From a virus, in IMG/VR virus record IMGVR_UViG_3300035661_000011, positions 90,506 to 154,505 of that record: a DNA stretch of 64,000 nucleotides. One strand, 5' to 3'. Below, one piece after another: positions 29,019 to 55,750 of the stretch. The position numbers and the translations under genes were made by a program. The notes under the pieces are model-generated. The model worked only from the letters and a program-made list of their open reading frames with translations. It was not told the origin of the DNA and ran no database searches. Position 1 is the first letter of the stretch. Each line of letters opens with the position of its first letter.

Positions 29019-29031
29019 CGTATATTATCTA
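29019..29031 (+). promoter_or_regulatory. Early-promoter-like motif
   Basis: cgtatattatcta precedes a hairpin at 29031-29060 and the gene at 29091. Confidence 0.6.
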
Positions 29032-29090: not shown

Positions 29091-30767
29091 ATGGCAAACG
29101 TTGTTAAATTACACCCTGAAGAAATAGTGTCTTTAAAGCTAAGATTTGAAGGTATAGCTGAAACCCTTAATCTTGGGGATATCGTTGTTTTTGTCAAAGA
29201 AGAAGATGTACGTGTTGAGTTAGTTGGCCCCGGTAATCCGTTTATCATTTTAGAAAATCGGAAACTCGGGTTCATTGTACCAATGTTTTTCGATCATTCA
29301 AACTGTGATACGTTTGAAACTGTAAGATTATCCAACACTTACAGCTGGATATCAGAGTGTAGAATCGATGAACAGAGCGCAGTAATGTTAACCGCCTACA
29401 TAGGTAGACGATCTACCCGGTCATTCAATGTGGAATTTTATACAGGTGACGATTTGTATGAGGATATGGTCACATTTGTAAACACGTTACGGTGGCTACA
29501 CGAAAGTGATTTTTACAAAAGTCAAAATATTCACCACTGTTACCATCGGGATGAGGCAATGCCTCTACTGGATAAAAATAAACCCATTGATATAAAAGGG
29601 GTTTTACTTAAACAAAAAGCAAAGCGGGACAAATTTAAACACGCAACTACGTTAAACGATAAAACAATTGTCATTCCAAAACACTGGGTGATGGAATTGC
29701 GATTAATGCTAGTACAGGACATTAACTTAGATGATATAGATATCCACTACATCGGTGGACCTAGTAAACAAAAACCTGTATTGGAAAACAATTTATGTAT
29801 TCCAGACTGGCATGACCTTAAAGTGTTTGAAACTGCCGCTGATATAAACTTAACTGACGCAGATAATAACCACGATTTTATTATTTTAGAAAGCGGATGT
29901 GTTGGGTTTGCATTTCTTAACGGTGCAGGTGTTATTAGCTATGTGGTTGGCGATGGGGACATAGATACCGTTCTATGTGACATTAGTGTAGGACGTCTGA
30001 AATGTTTTTTAGAGCTGTACAAATATATGAATGGTGCTAACGGTGCCGAAAACAACTCATTTCATTTAGACCCAGATTTGTTACGTAAGTTACAACTCAG
30101 AACCGTTGGGTTACCAAACTGTGATATTGGAGAACTTTATTTATACGATACATACTGCCAAGTTGATGTATTTTGGGACATAAATAGCATATCTTATACA
30201 ACTAAGTCTATTCCAGACGTATTTATCACAATGTGCGATATGGTTGTTTGGGAAAGAAAAGGTCTATTTTCTGCACACCGTACAACAACCAGTAGAATTG
30301 TCACTGTTAACACACTTGAACAAATCAAAAGTTATGCTACCACCGCAGGTAAGTCTCTGGATCCCGAATCACAAAGTAAACTGTACGGTTGTATTTATTC
30401 TATCGCGGTATGTAGCGAACCTAGACATTATGTTCTTTCAGAAGAAGTGTTAGATGAACTTAAGCTCCAAGTTTTAGATCCGCAATATATACACTCTGTA
30501 GGCGGTTCTGTTAAAGTGTATCCTAATTTAGGTGACGTAACGGAAGCCGAGTTACACAAACCGTTTATCAGCCTAGATTCATGTAGTGTTAATGTAGCGT
30601 TAACCGATGAGGAAAATTCTGAGTTAAAAGAGGTGATGGGAGATAGAGTGGTGGTGTACCCATTGGACAAAGGAAGTTTTACATCTAGTCCAGACTGGGT
30701 ATTGGATGAAGAAAGTAAATTGCGACTGAACGAATATCTGGCGCGACCAGACGTAAAGTTAGTTTAA
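29091..30767 (+). CDS. Unidentified protein made of about four repeat modules
   Basis: The 558-residue product appears to hold several copies of a module of about 110 residues: a VKVF/VFET start, D-I/V then LTDAD-like, FIIL/FISLD, a variable stretch, and a closing helix LDEESKLRLNEYL. The clearest copies are near residues 240-325 and 450-555. The same module occurs at 27718 and possibly 885. No catalytic residues stand out. Tandem modules suggest a binding scaffold, perhaps with several partners. Early promoter-like motif upstream. Confidence 0.65.
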   Translation: MANVVKLHPEEIVSLKLRFEGIAETLNLGDIVVFVKEEDVRVELVGPGNPFIILENRKLGFIVPMFFDHSNCDTFETVRLSNTYSWISECRIDEQSAVMLTAYIGRRSTRSFNVEFYTGDDLYEDMVTFVNTLRWLHESDFYKSQNIHHCYHRDEAMPLLDKNKPIDIKGVLLKQKAKRDKFKHATTLNDKTIVIPKHWVMELRLMLVQDINLDDIDIHYIGGPSKQKPVLENNLCIPDWHDLKVFETAADINLTDADNNHDFIILESGCVGFAFLNGAGVISYVVGDGDIDTVLCDISVGRLKCFLELYKYMNGANGAENNSFHLDPDLLRKLQLRTVGLPNCDIGELYLYDTYCQVDVFWDINSISYTTKSIPDVFITMCDMVVWERKGLFSAHRTTTSRIVTVNTLEQIKSYATTAGKSLDPESQSKLYGCIYSIAVCSEPRHYVLSEEVLDELKLQVLDPQYIHSVGGSVKVYPNLGDVTEAELHKPFISLDSCSVNVALTDEENSELKEVMGDRVVVYPLDKGSFTSSPDWVLDEESKLRLNEYLARPDVKLV

Positions 30768-42057: not shown

Positions 42058-42080
42058 TCAAAACTCATTAATTATTCAGG

Positions 42081-42093
42081 CATACATTATCTT
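42081..42093 (+). promoter_or_regulatory. Early-promoter-like motif (variant)
   Basis: catacattatctt is followed by a hairpin at 42094-42120 and the gene at 42146. Confidence 0.5.
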
Positions 42094-42120
42094 GATGGTA
42101 AACTTAAATACTTTACCATC
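42094..42120 (+). promoter_or_regulatory. 5-prime leader hairpin
   Basis: GATGGTAAA pairs perfectly with TTTACCATC around a nine-base loop, 26 bases before the start codon. Confidence 0.6.
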
Positions 42121-42145
42121 ATTTAATTAACTTAGGAGAATAGCT

Positions 42146-42484
42146 ATGGAAAATTTAAACCAATGTATGGCGGCACACGGTAACAAATCTTCACTGAAAA
42201 TAATCGACTCAGTAGTGTCTGGTGGCGGAACCACTACTAAACTCTTAATAGGTAACGTCCCACACGGTAGATCGTGGATAACAGAAGTTCGTAAAGTTGT
42301 CGGCTACGGAAAGTCAACCGTTATAAAAGTCACTAGCAACGGCGCATCTGAATGTATTCTACACGACTCTGTGTTGCACGATATCGGTTTGGAGTGTCGT
42401 TTAATCGATTGGGCTAAAGCTGCACTAGCAGTACAAATGAGAAACAACCCGGATATATCGGAGATTGTAGCAGTGGTTGCATAA
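42146..42484 (+). CDS. Unidentified small protein, probable early gene
   Basis: TTAGGAG precedes the ATG. The 112-residue protein has a strand-rich first half (KIIDSVVSGGGTTTKLLIG) and a helical second half with conserved-looking H and D. No family recognised. Directly after its stop lies the structured RNA at 42494. Confidence 0.65.
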   Translation: MENLNQCMAAHGNKSSLKIIDSVVSGGGTTTKLLIGNVPHGRSWITEVRKVVGYGKSTVIKVTSNGASECILHDSVLHDIGLECRLIDWAKAALAVQMRNNPDISEIVAVVA

Positions 42485-42493
42485 AAGTTTTAT

Positions 42494-42569
42494 GTGGTAA
42501 ACCTCCGAGGGCGCCTCTGCCTAACAGGGGCTAATTCCTTTAACTGGAATTAATGTACGGAGTTTACAC
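42494..42569 (+). ncRNA. Candidate structured RNA with three-way junction
   Basis: Three stems fold from this 76-base stretch: a closing stem (42494-42507 with 42558-42569, about 12 pairs with two bulges), hairpin A (42513-42519 with 42525-42531, loop CCTAA) and hairpin B (42532-42538 with 42546-42552). A and B abut without a spacer and could stack coaxially. The base composition is more GC-rich than the surroundings, and there is no ORF. It sits between a gene stop and a terminator, so it would be at the 3-prime end of the 42146 transcript or be processed from it. It is not a tRNA: it lacks a third arm and an acceptor CCA end. Confidence 0.55.
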
Positions 42570-42581
42570 AATTATTTTAGT

Positions 42582-42613
42582 GTACCATATCGAGGTTAAC
42601 CTCGATATGGTAC
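42582..42613 (+). terminator. Hairpin terminator
   Basis: A perfect 16-base-arm palindrome with a T-run (about 42620-42633) ends the transcript carrying the structured RNA. Confidence 0.85.
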
Positions 42614-42671
42614 TATATATTTTATTTTTTTTTTACACCTTGGTGCATAATAATATTCGTAGGAGATAGTC

Positions 42672-42930
42672 ATGTTAGACCAGATAGTAAACGATGATAT
42701 TTTGGAAGATGACCTTAAAGAATACCCAAGCGGATTACTTTAAACAAATACAAACTAATCTTGATTGGAATATTGGATACTCACAGTTCGTGTTAATTTG
42801 CAGTTCTATCGAAGCAGCAGAAGTATTTGTTCATCAGTTCCCTGGAGCAATGCTTTATGGTGGAACCGATAACGGTAAATCAACTCACCCTCGTAATACT
42901 TTTAAAGAACGATTTAAAAAAAGAAATTGA
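42672..42930 (+). CDS. Small protein spanning a possible +1 frameshift
   Basis: TAGGAGATAGTC gives a good binding site for ATG 42672, but that frame stops after 23 codons at TAA 42741. The stop is directly preceded by CTT, and the +1 frame then runs open to 42930 (KQIQTNLDWNIGYSQFVLIC to KERFKKRN). CTT followed by T is the same slippery arrangement as in bacterial prfB (CTT TGA). Shifting by one base at CTT-T joins both parts into about 85 residues. Alternatives are a true frameshift mutation or a separate gene starting without a binding site. The product is not recognised. Confidence 0.5.
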
Positions 42931-42936
42931 TAAGTA

Positions 42937-42970
42937 GTGTACAGGTGGAGCAAAGGCTCCACCTGTACAC
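42937..42970. terminator. Bidirectional terminator
   Basis: Fourteen-base arms, GC-containing, with a T-run at about 42974-42983, lie between convergent genes ending at 42930 and 42982. Confidence 0.85.
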
Positions 42971-42981
42971 ATTATTTTTTT

Positions 42982-53308: not shown

Positions 53309-53974
53309 TTTTACTATACATTAAAATGTGCGTAATTCATAGGTTTATAAGGTTGTTGTAATAGTTTGCCCTACGGTTTTAATATAATACGGTACACAAC
53401 GCATGTGCACCTTATTATAATTAACTTTGGGGGAGCGATGTACAAACAAATACCTAAAACAGATGGGTATTAGAACTGATGGAAGAAGACAAGAATTTAA
53501 ATCTATTAGAGATGCGGAAGTAAGAACTTTTTTAAATAGAAAACTTATTTCCAAATGCCTTAAGGGTTTACCAATTTCGTCAAGCTGGAATTTTAAATAC
53601 GCATACAGTGTATAATTGAGTCCTACACACAGGTAACTGTGTGATAGATTCTTCTTGAATTGCTGGAATAACTCGTTAGACTAATCAACTACAATAGCCG
53701 TGAAAACAGGCTATGAATGTCTGAAAATGATTAGGTAGAGTCAACCGTGGGACATAAGTCCCCTTTAGCAGCGAAGCTCCTAAGTCACTATGTGATATGG
53801 AGAACGTTCAACGATCATCCCTTATCCAGGGAGTAGAGCCTCTAGTTATAAAATGAGGAAGAAGTGGGAAGCTCCCTGATATATCAGGGTGAAGATATGA
53901 TCTGCTCCTACACGAGAGTGTAGGCGGGTGTCTTAGCACACCGGGTTAGCTTAACGCACTAACCGGACAGTAGG
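53309..53974 (+). other. Group I intron in the beta-prime gene
   Basis: The 666-base insert has group I hallmarks. The conserved 3-prime core reads GTTCAACGATCATCCC (from about 53806) and later GAAGATATGATCTGCTCC, whose GATCAT and ATGATC pair as P7. An AATTGCTGGAA segment at about 53658 fits the P/Q region. Hairpins P9 (CCTACACGAGAGTGTAGG), P9.1 and P9.2 (CCGGGTTAG...CTAACCGG) follow. The last intron base is G and the base before the intron is T, as required. GTCCTA near 53620 could be the guide sequence, pairing with TGGaGAT of exon 1 with one bulge. Boundaries come from protein colinearity. An endonuclease remnant lies in the 5-prime part. Confidence 0.8.
53427..53615 (+). pseudogene. Remnant of an intron homing endonuclease
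   Basis: A 62-codon frame ends with RTDGRRQEFKSIRDAEVRTF, then LISKCLKG and WNFKYAY, which is the C-terminal helix-turn-helix module (NUMOD1/IENR1 type) of HNH and GIY-YIG homing endonucleases. In another frame, GGGGGAG precedes ATG 53438 and encodes MYKQIPKTDGY before a TAG, which looks like the usual N-terminus of HNH endonucleases. The catalytic HNH part between the two is missing. I infer an internal deletion plus frameshift, so the nuclease is dead. It probably lies in the P1 loop of the intron. Confidence 0.6.
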
Positions 53975-55750
53975 AAAATGAGTATTCAGTTTGTTTTATC
54001 TAAAGAAGCTAGAAAAGAAGTCCATGACTTTCATAATAGTAAAGAATCTTTATTAAATCAAACTGGGCAATTGCGATATGGTATTAATAATAAAATTTCT
54101 GAATTAGTAGTTGAGGCTATGACTATTGGATTTTATCCATCTAAAGCTGGCTTAGAGGATTTAAAAGACGATATAGATGAAGCTGCACATGAAGCTGCAA
54201 CGTCACACTTAAACGATTTACCAGAGCCAACGATTCCAATGTATGAAGCCGGTAACTATAAGAAAGGTCATATCGCTTTACAAGGTTTAAGAATATCTAT
54301 TGAAAACCCACAGGGGTCTACTCGAAAGGGGGTTGATAAAGACGGTAAAGAATGGTCTCGTGTAATGTCTCATCATTATGGGTATGTTAAAGGTTCGTTA
54401 GGGGCTGATGGTGACCACGTTGATGTATATGTTGGTGATACACCAGAGTCAGAGGATGTATTTGTTGTGAATCAGATATTTCCAGATACGCTTAAATTTG
54501 ATGAACATAAAGTAATGCTCGGATTTACTACTTTAGACTCTGCTGTTAAAGCGTATAAAAGTAACTTTACTAAAGACTGGAAAGGTTTAGGTTCAGTAAC
54601 TGAAATTACAATGGAGGAATTTAAAGAACATCTAAAGAAAGATAAAGTCACTAAACCTATTTTAAACGACGAAAGTGTTCATTATGGTACAGAAGATCTA
54701 AAGGTGTACAAACCACCAGTTGTACGTTCTGCTACAAAGAAAGATTTACCTAAGTTAATCGAGCTATGGAAAACCTTAGTGTCTGAAACTAACTATCTAC
54801 GAAACGACATTGTTGAATCAAATAAAGTTTCATTTGAAACTAATAAATTTAATGAAATGTCTAAAGAACCAAATAAGTATTTCGTATTGGATTTAGATGG
54901 TCTAATTGTGGGGGCTATACGGTGCACTGTTGTCAAATATAAGAGTGAAGCTAGCTTTGGGTTAGGTGTGCTTGCTAAACACCAAGGTAGAGGCTATGGG
55001 GCGTTATTAATTAACACTCTCATATCTTCATTAAAAGAGGATGGTATTAGTCTACTCTACCTATACGTAAATACAGAAAACGTTAGGGCTATTGGACTTT
55101 ATAACAAACTAGGGTTTAAACCAAATGGTAAACTATTAGAGATTGGTAAAGAAAAACTTTTAGAGATGGATATGCAATTAGGTTCAACTAAACCTAAGTC
55201 ATCTATCTATGCTAAATCACTAAAAGAAATTGATTTTCTATCATTAGTACGAGGTACTTTTAAGTTGGGGTTTGGAAATGAAAATATGATAGACCCATAT
55301 TTGAATGGTAGAAACGTTAACACTTTAGAGTTTAAACACGAACAACGACATCGCGTAGGAAATGTTTTTCAAGACACCTTTGATAACACTATGCGAGAAT
55401 TAGGTTGGTCTGAATCGAAGCCAGTTGATAAGTCTTGGGTGGGTTTTGATTTAGATGGTACATTAGCCGAATACGATGGGTGGAAAGGTATCGAGTTTAT
55501 TGGTAAACCGATTCCATCTATGGTAGATCGAGTTAAACAGTATTTAAGTGATGGTCAAAACGTAAAGATATTTACAGCCAGAGCCTGTGATGATGAAGCA
55601 ATTCCTTTTGTAAAAGAGTGGTTGACTGTTCATGGTCTTGGTGAGTTGGAGATAACCAATGTAAAAGATTTTCACATGGTTAAACTATATGACGATAGAT
55701 GTGTTCAAGTTGTAGAAAACACAGGTGAACTCGTTGGGTTAGGAAAATAA
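53975..55750 (+). CDS. RNA polymerase beta-prime exon 2 fused to InPase, GNAT and HAD domains
   Basis: Joined to exon 1 it continues DGD-KMSIQFVLSKEARKEV, parallel to DGDQMAVHVPLTLEAQLEA of E. coli. HNSKESLLNQTGQLRYG parallels MSTNNILSPANGEP. From about residue 92 of this ORF (counting from the ATG at 53978) comes an inorganic-pyrophosphatase-like phage domain (VMSHHYGYVKGSLGADGDHVDVY, FDEHKVMLGF). At 247-395 follows a GNAT acetyltransferase (KHQGRGYGALLINTL, then VNTENVRAIGLYNKLGF). At about 475-590 is a HAD phosphatase (GFDLDGTLAEYDGW, FTARA, KLYDDR). The ATG at 53978 has no Shine-Dalgarno. The bridge helix and trigger loop must be encoded elsewhere. Confidence 0.75.
   Translation, partial: KMSIQFVLSKEARKEVHDFHNSKESLLNQTGQLRYGINNKISELVVEAMTIGFYPSKAGLEDLKDDIDEAAHEAATSHLNDLPEPTIPMYEAGNYKKGHIALQGLRISIENPQGSTRKGVDKDGKEWSRVMSHHYGYVKGSLGADGDHVDVYVGDTPESEDVFVVNQIFPDTLKFDEHKVMLGFTTLDSAVKAYKSNFTKDWKGLGSVTEITMEEFKEHLKKDKVTKPILNDESVHYGTEDLKVYKPPVVRSATKKDLPKLIELWKTLVSETNYLRNDIVESNKVSFETNKFNEMSKEPNKYFVLDLDGLIVGAIRCTVVKYKSEASFGLGVLAKHQGRGYGALLINTLISSLKEDGISLLYLYVNTENVRAIGLYNKLGFKPNGKLLEIGKEKLLEMDMQLGSTKPKSSIYAKSLKEIDFLSLVRGTFKLGFGNENMIDPYLNGRNVNTLEFKHEQRHRVGNVFQDTFDNTMRELGWSESKPVDKSWVGFDLDGTLAEYDGWKGIEFIGKPIPSMVDRVKQYLSDGQNVKIFTARACDDEAIPFVKEWLTVHGLGELEITNVKDFHMVKLYDDRCVQVVENTGELVGLGK

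Follow-up and report, generated by a model that had tools for sequence, protein, structure and literature searches.

The stretch of DNA analysed here (the window, 64,000 nucleotides) comprises bases 90506-154505 of the 154,505-base viral record IMGVR_UViG_3300035661_000011; negative coordinates denote positions upstream of the window in the same record. This 154-kb fragment encodes subunits of a multisubunit RNA polymerase together with virion proteins of the phiKZ group, with approximately 29-33% identity to all deposited relatives. The low protein identity to every deposited relative points to a divergent lineage, and by its encoded proteins the phage is a divergent relative of phiKZ, of the giant phiKZ type. 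The phiKZ nuclear shell protein found no match in a sequence-only search of the fragment, the record being incomplete. Roughly 9% of the window is free of open reading frames (ORFs), and here, between the stop codon of a small gene and the terminator of that gene, on the same strand, lies a short RNA element with a predicted three-way junction. The transcription unit reads, in order, promoter motif, 5' hairpin, Shine-Dalgarno sequence, 112-aa ORF, element and terminator:

42083..42092, + strand: early-promoter motif TACATTATCT (family consensus TATATTATCT; PWM score 18.4), within a 22-nt site at 42078-42099
42093..42121, + strand: 5' leader hairpin at the putative transcript start, with a 10-bp stem (60-nt leader, -11.1 kcal/mol)
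42146..42484, + strand: 112-aa orphan ORF, with AGGAG (Shine-Dalgarno) upstream
42494..42569, + strand: three-way-junction RNA element of 76 nt, from folding prediction
42498..42507, + strand: 5' strand of the outer stem P1, predicted to pair with 42558-42566 (pair probabilities 0.95-1.0, bulge-adjacent pair 0.49)
42513..42531, + strand: predicted hairpin P2, GCCUCUG-CCUAA-CAGGGGC (pair probabilities >0.99)
42532..42552, + strand: predicted hairpin P3, UAAUUCC-UUUAACU-GGAAUUA (pair probabilities 0.90-1.0)
42558..42566, + strand: 3' strand of P1, from the pair-probability calculation
42582..42635, + strand: intrinsic terminator, a 16-bp perfect hairpin followed by a T-rich tract

A first-pass annotation had placed the element correctly at 42494-42569 and described its anatomy, which folding prediction reproduces as an outer stem, P1, enclosing two abutting hairpins of seven pairs each, P2 and P3. 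In P1, 42498-42502 pair with 42562-42566 and 42504-42507 with 42558-42561, leaving one bulged C (42502/42503). That annotation had counted about 12 pairs in the closing stem; nine of them are well supported, while the outer three at its foot (42494-42496 with 42567-42569) are weak, with probabilities of 0.35-0.68, so that P1 totals 9-12 pairs. P2 (42513-42519 with 42525-42531) contains one G.U pair and no mismatch and closes on the loop CCUAA, P3 (42532-42538 with 42546-42552) is likewise free of mismatches and closes on UUUAACU, and the junction strands are AGGGC, none (0 nt) between P2 and P3, and AUGUA. The minimum free energy of the element is -27.6 kcal/mol, against -17.6 +/- 3.0 kcal/mol for shuffled sequences (two of 1000 fold equally well), and the corresponding z-score of -3.3 is that of a pre-selected segment, chosen by eye. 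Longer contexts, including the whole mRNA, keep the fold, with P2 and P3 at approximately 0.98 and P1 at approximately 0.8. The transcribed strand folds better than the opposite strand (-27.6 versus -23.7 kcal/mol) because the G.U pair of P2 becomes A-C on the latter. As a computed prediction, the fold is real. The AGG of the first junction strand could in addition pair with the CCU of the P2 loop, stacking P1 on P2 as an H-type pseudoknot; such a duplex would contribute approximately -3 kcal/mol, and the arrangement is sterically plausible.

The element is richer in GC than its surroundings (0.46 versus approximately 0.36 nearby) and holds no ORF of at least 40 aa, both as originally described. 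All three reading frames are interrupted within or near it, and the sole frame with an ATG enters at 42553 and continues through the terminator; by the standard applied to 3'-UTR-derived phage small RNAs, the element is non-coding. The statement that it resembles no tRNA, hammerhead or other familiar ribozyme also stands. A search of the window with 4227 Rfam families gave no match at the gathering threshold and only hits with E >1 under permissive settings, and ARAGORN found neither tRNA nor tmRNA in the window or elsewhere on the fragment. A hammerhead ribozyme would require CUGANGA and GAAA in place of the junction strands seen here. Two further candidates were rejected on the DNA itself: the ends of the element form an imperfect inverted repeat, as a mobile repeat might, but only one copy is present, and GC skew is negative over approximately 42-52 kb, as might be seen at a replication origin, yet it tracks the leftward gene block there.

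The description of the upstream ORF as a probable early gene is supported by the promoter motif that precedes it. The motif, AAACATATATTATCTAnnTGRT, was derived from word enrichment upstream of genes, and in the 154-kb fragment 25 sites on the + strand score >15 with its PWM; the only minus-strand site above this score, at 29722, lies within coding sequence. Sites in the window (+ strand) fall at 811, 4284, 18128, 27651, 29016, 31293, 37093, 42078 and 55825. The motif resembles the early sites TTAAACAGTATATTACT read from the phiKZ sequence, and phages of this kind are described as following the rule of a conserved, AT-rich early motif with its centre close to -10 (PMC7598289). The 5' edge of the element, ATGTGGTAAA, agrees with the early leader at 29031 over 10 nt, though without the promoter motif itself, and the resemblance was set aside. 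Almost every TATAT[T/C]ATCT is followed within 1-5 nt by a hairpin, whose sequence varies, and the mean folding energy of the 25 leaders, -6.28, is matched by none of 200 shuffles (-2.84, sd 0.38). Early transcripts of this phage thus seem, on predicted folding, nearly all to start with a stem-loop, whose structure is kept without its sequence and which may serve as a protective cap at the 5' end; in the phiKZ slice the leaders seem weaker.

The terminator downstream of the element, a further feature that had been correctly recognised, differs from its counterparts in its distance from the stop codon. The comparison covers the 16 terminators on the + strand that have a stem of at least 13 pairs and directly close an ORF, leaving aside one at -76839 that lies 185 nt after its ORF and lacks a prompt T run. 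Of these, 14 begin 1-25 nt past the stop codon and one begins 61 nt past it, across a weakly structured gap (-6.3 kcal/mol). The terminator at 42582 follows its stop codon by 97 nt, and its gap, at -29.1 kcal/mol, is the only one with a stable fold. Since the other 15 lie 1-61 nt after their ORFs without a stable fold, the phage does not generally add such structure to its 3' UTRs, and long, structured ones are the exception in it. Terminators throughout the fragment (e.g., 42582, 42937, 28523 and 32531) are nearly perfect hairpins of 13-17 bp whose T run starts several bases past the stem, a design that is probably characteristic of the RNA polymerase encoded by the phage.

The nearest viral contigs, L005 and L006 (43 and 41% identity in the neighbouring 778-aa protein), retain both of the convergent genes that flank the locus. 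Between these genes L005 has nothing and L006 two unrelated genes, as against the 112-aa gene and the RNA in the window. The contents of the site (42058-42981) are thus wholly different in the two nearest relatives, which marks it as an accessory site. Neither the RNA nor the 112-aa gene has a homologue in 34 whole phage records or in the flanks of 80 IMG/VR relatives. BLAST searches of phages and plasmids with the element returned nothing beyond short chance pieces, and pattern scans found no match in viral or genome contigs. A covariance model built from the single sequence, which reaches fairly close relatives only, found just the element itself in 84 loci, the 34 whole records, two slices of phiKZ and the remainder of the fragment. 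The 112-aa protein is without a match in Pfam, PHROGs, PADLOC or tblastn searches, and its single-sequence AlphaFold model (pLDDT 35) is uninformative and was not used.

Because the element had been picked by eye, its anatomy was searched for directly on both strands of the 154-kb fragment, requiring an outer helix of at least nine pairs with one bulge allowed and two abutting seven-pair hairpins. Exactly one site, the element, was found. Among 80 block-shuffled fragments, nine hold such a structure with an equal or looser outer stem and seven hold one that is equally good (at least 10 outer pairs). By this search alone a chance origin is unlikely but not negligible, and the location on the transcribed strand between a stop codon and its terminator makes chance less likely.

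Several known systems offer comparisons. The packaging RNA of phi29-type phages likewise contains a three-way junction, but it belongs to another phage group and another gene context, and the Rfam Phage_pRNA model is unmatched here both at its gathering threshold and at E up to 10. The RNAs of ToxIN-like type III toxin-antitoxin systems share the order of structured RNA, terminator and small ORF; however, the element is a single copy without tandem repeats, and the ORF downstream (78-85 aa) lacks a toxin domain and any Pfam or PADLOC match, so such a system was rejected. Much closer in context is an abundant RNA of approximately 100 nt that derives from the 3' UTR of PHIKZ298 in phiKZ, as found by Grad-seq and Northern blot (Gerovac et al., 2021; PMC8545117). 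It comes from the same phage group, lies downstream of a stop codon, is structured, probably includes an intrinsic terminator and contains no small ORF. It differs in having two stem-loops, the second terminator-like (PMC8545117), instead of a three-way junction, and in following a virion-protein gene and not a small early orphan; a covariance-model comparison with the phiKZ slices detected no shared sequence or structure. Small RNAs derived from bacterial 3' UTRs also share the 3' location and the use of the terminator of the gene (PMC9438474), but for these transcription or processing has been demonstrated, whereas the element is known from sequence alone and its transcription, processing, stability and any target are inferred.

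On the precedent of the gene 298 RNA of phiKZ, we tentatively favour the view that the element is a structured 3'-UTR module of an early mRNA that yields a stable 3'-UTR-derived RNA. Judging from the motif, transcription by the virion RNA polymerase would begin near 42093-42099, run through the 112-aa gene and end at the terminator (42582-42635), giving a monocistronic early mRNA. The three-way junction and the terminator hairpin would together form a ribonuclease-resistant 3' end of approximately 130-140 nt, which would outlive the coding part as a small RNA and might work through base pairing or protein binding. The main rival, which we consider unlikely though clearly the strongest, is a chance or neutral structure: an accessory gene, recently acquired, would have a 3' UTR that folds well without a function of its own. 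It would account for an anatomy that arises at approximately 0.1 per shuffled 154-kb fragment, for a z-score that comes from a selected segment, for a locus that varies among relatives (no gene in L005, two unrelated genes in L006) and for the failure to find a homologue. It fits less well with a structure that falls within the small ORF-free share of the window and, on the transcribed strand, precisely in the interval from a stop codon to its terminator, a spacer that is nearly nil in the other genes of the phage.

The first-pass annotation had suggested a regulatory RNA, a decoy or a 3' stability element, and these roles are not separable on sequence. The last of them is weakened, since other terminators closely follow their stop codons without such an element. 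A pure stability element or RNase barrier for the mRNA would suit the high folding energy and the adjacent 3' end; nevertheless, the 16-bp terminator hairpin already caps that end and the other genes of the phage do without extra structure, which leaves this reading improbable. We give equally little credence to an independent small RNA gene, read by the non-virion RNA polymerase from a phiKZ-like late site (T42491-A-T-G42494) and beginning with the outermost 5' base of the outer stem. Late transcripts of phiKZ begin at the G of TATG (PMC4666361), and here a TATG does end right on the 5' boundary of the element, but this argument is weak because TATG occurs approximately 5.6 times per kb. Somewhat less doubtful, but still rather unlikely, is that the 112-aa protein binds the RNA or partners with it, in autoregulation or in a phage ribonucleoprotein. 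The gene and the RNA would lie on one transcript and both are missing from all relatives examined, yet the parts of any island would be expected to be missing together, and the protein has no recognisable domain and an uninformative AlphaFold model. Least probable of all is that a new class of phage RNA and the 112-aa early orphan protein form a host-takeover ribonucleoprotein encoded in a variable island of phiKZ-like phages.

To our knowledge very few non-coding RNAs of phiKZ-like phages have been described. As a stable RNA from an early 3' UTR, the element is a reasonable candidate and no surprise. A predicted RNA with exact boundaries in a defined early unit offers a concrete probe for Northern blotting or small-RNA sequencing, should the phage or a relative be isolated.

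Two other features of the window may be recorded. Downstream of the terminator, at 42672-42930 (+ strand), a 23-aa ORF with a good Shine-Dalgarno sequence ends in CTT TAA, and a +1 shift would join it to an overlapping 78-aa frame to give an 85-aa protein, for which no homologue was found; the junction is explained either by a programmed frameshift like that of RF2 or by an indel of one base. A group I intron at 53336-53977 (+ strand; E 1.7e-9 with Rfam, where its 43.1 bits fall short of the gathering score of 50) splits the gene for a beta-type subunit of RNA polymerase directly behind the catalytic ADHDGD motif. Past the intron, at 53978, the family profile picks up with its following 49 residues, after which come pyrophosphatase, acetyltransferase and further domains.
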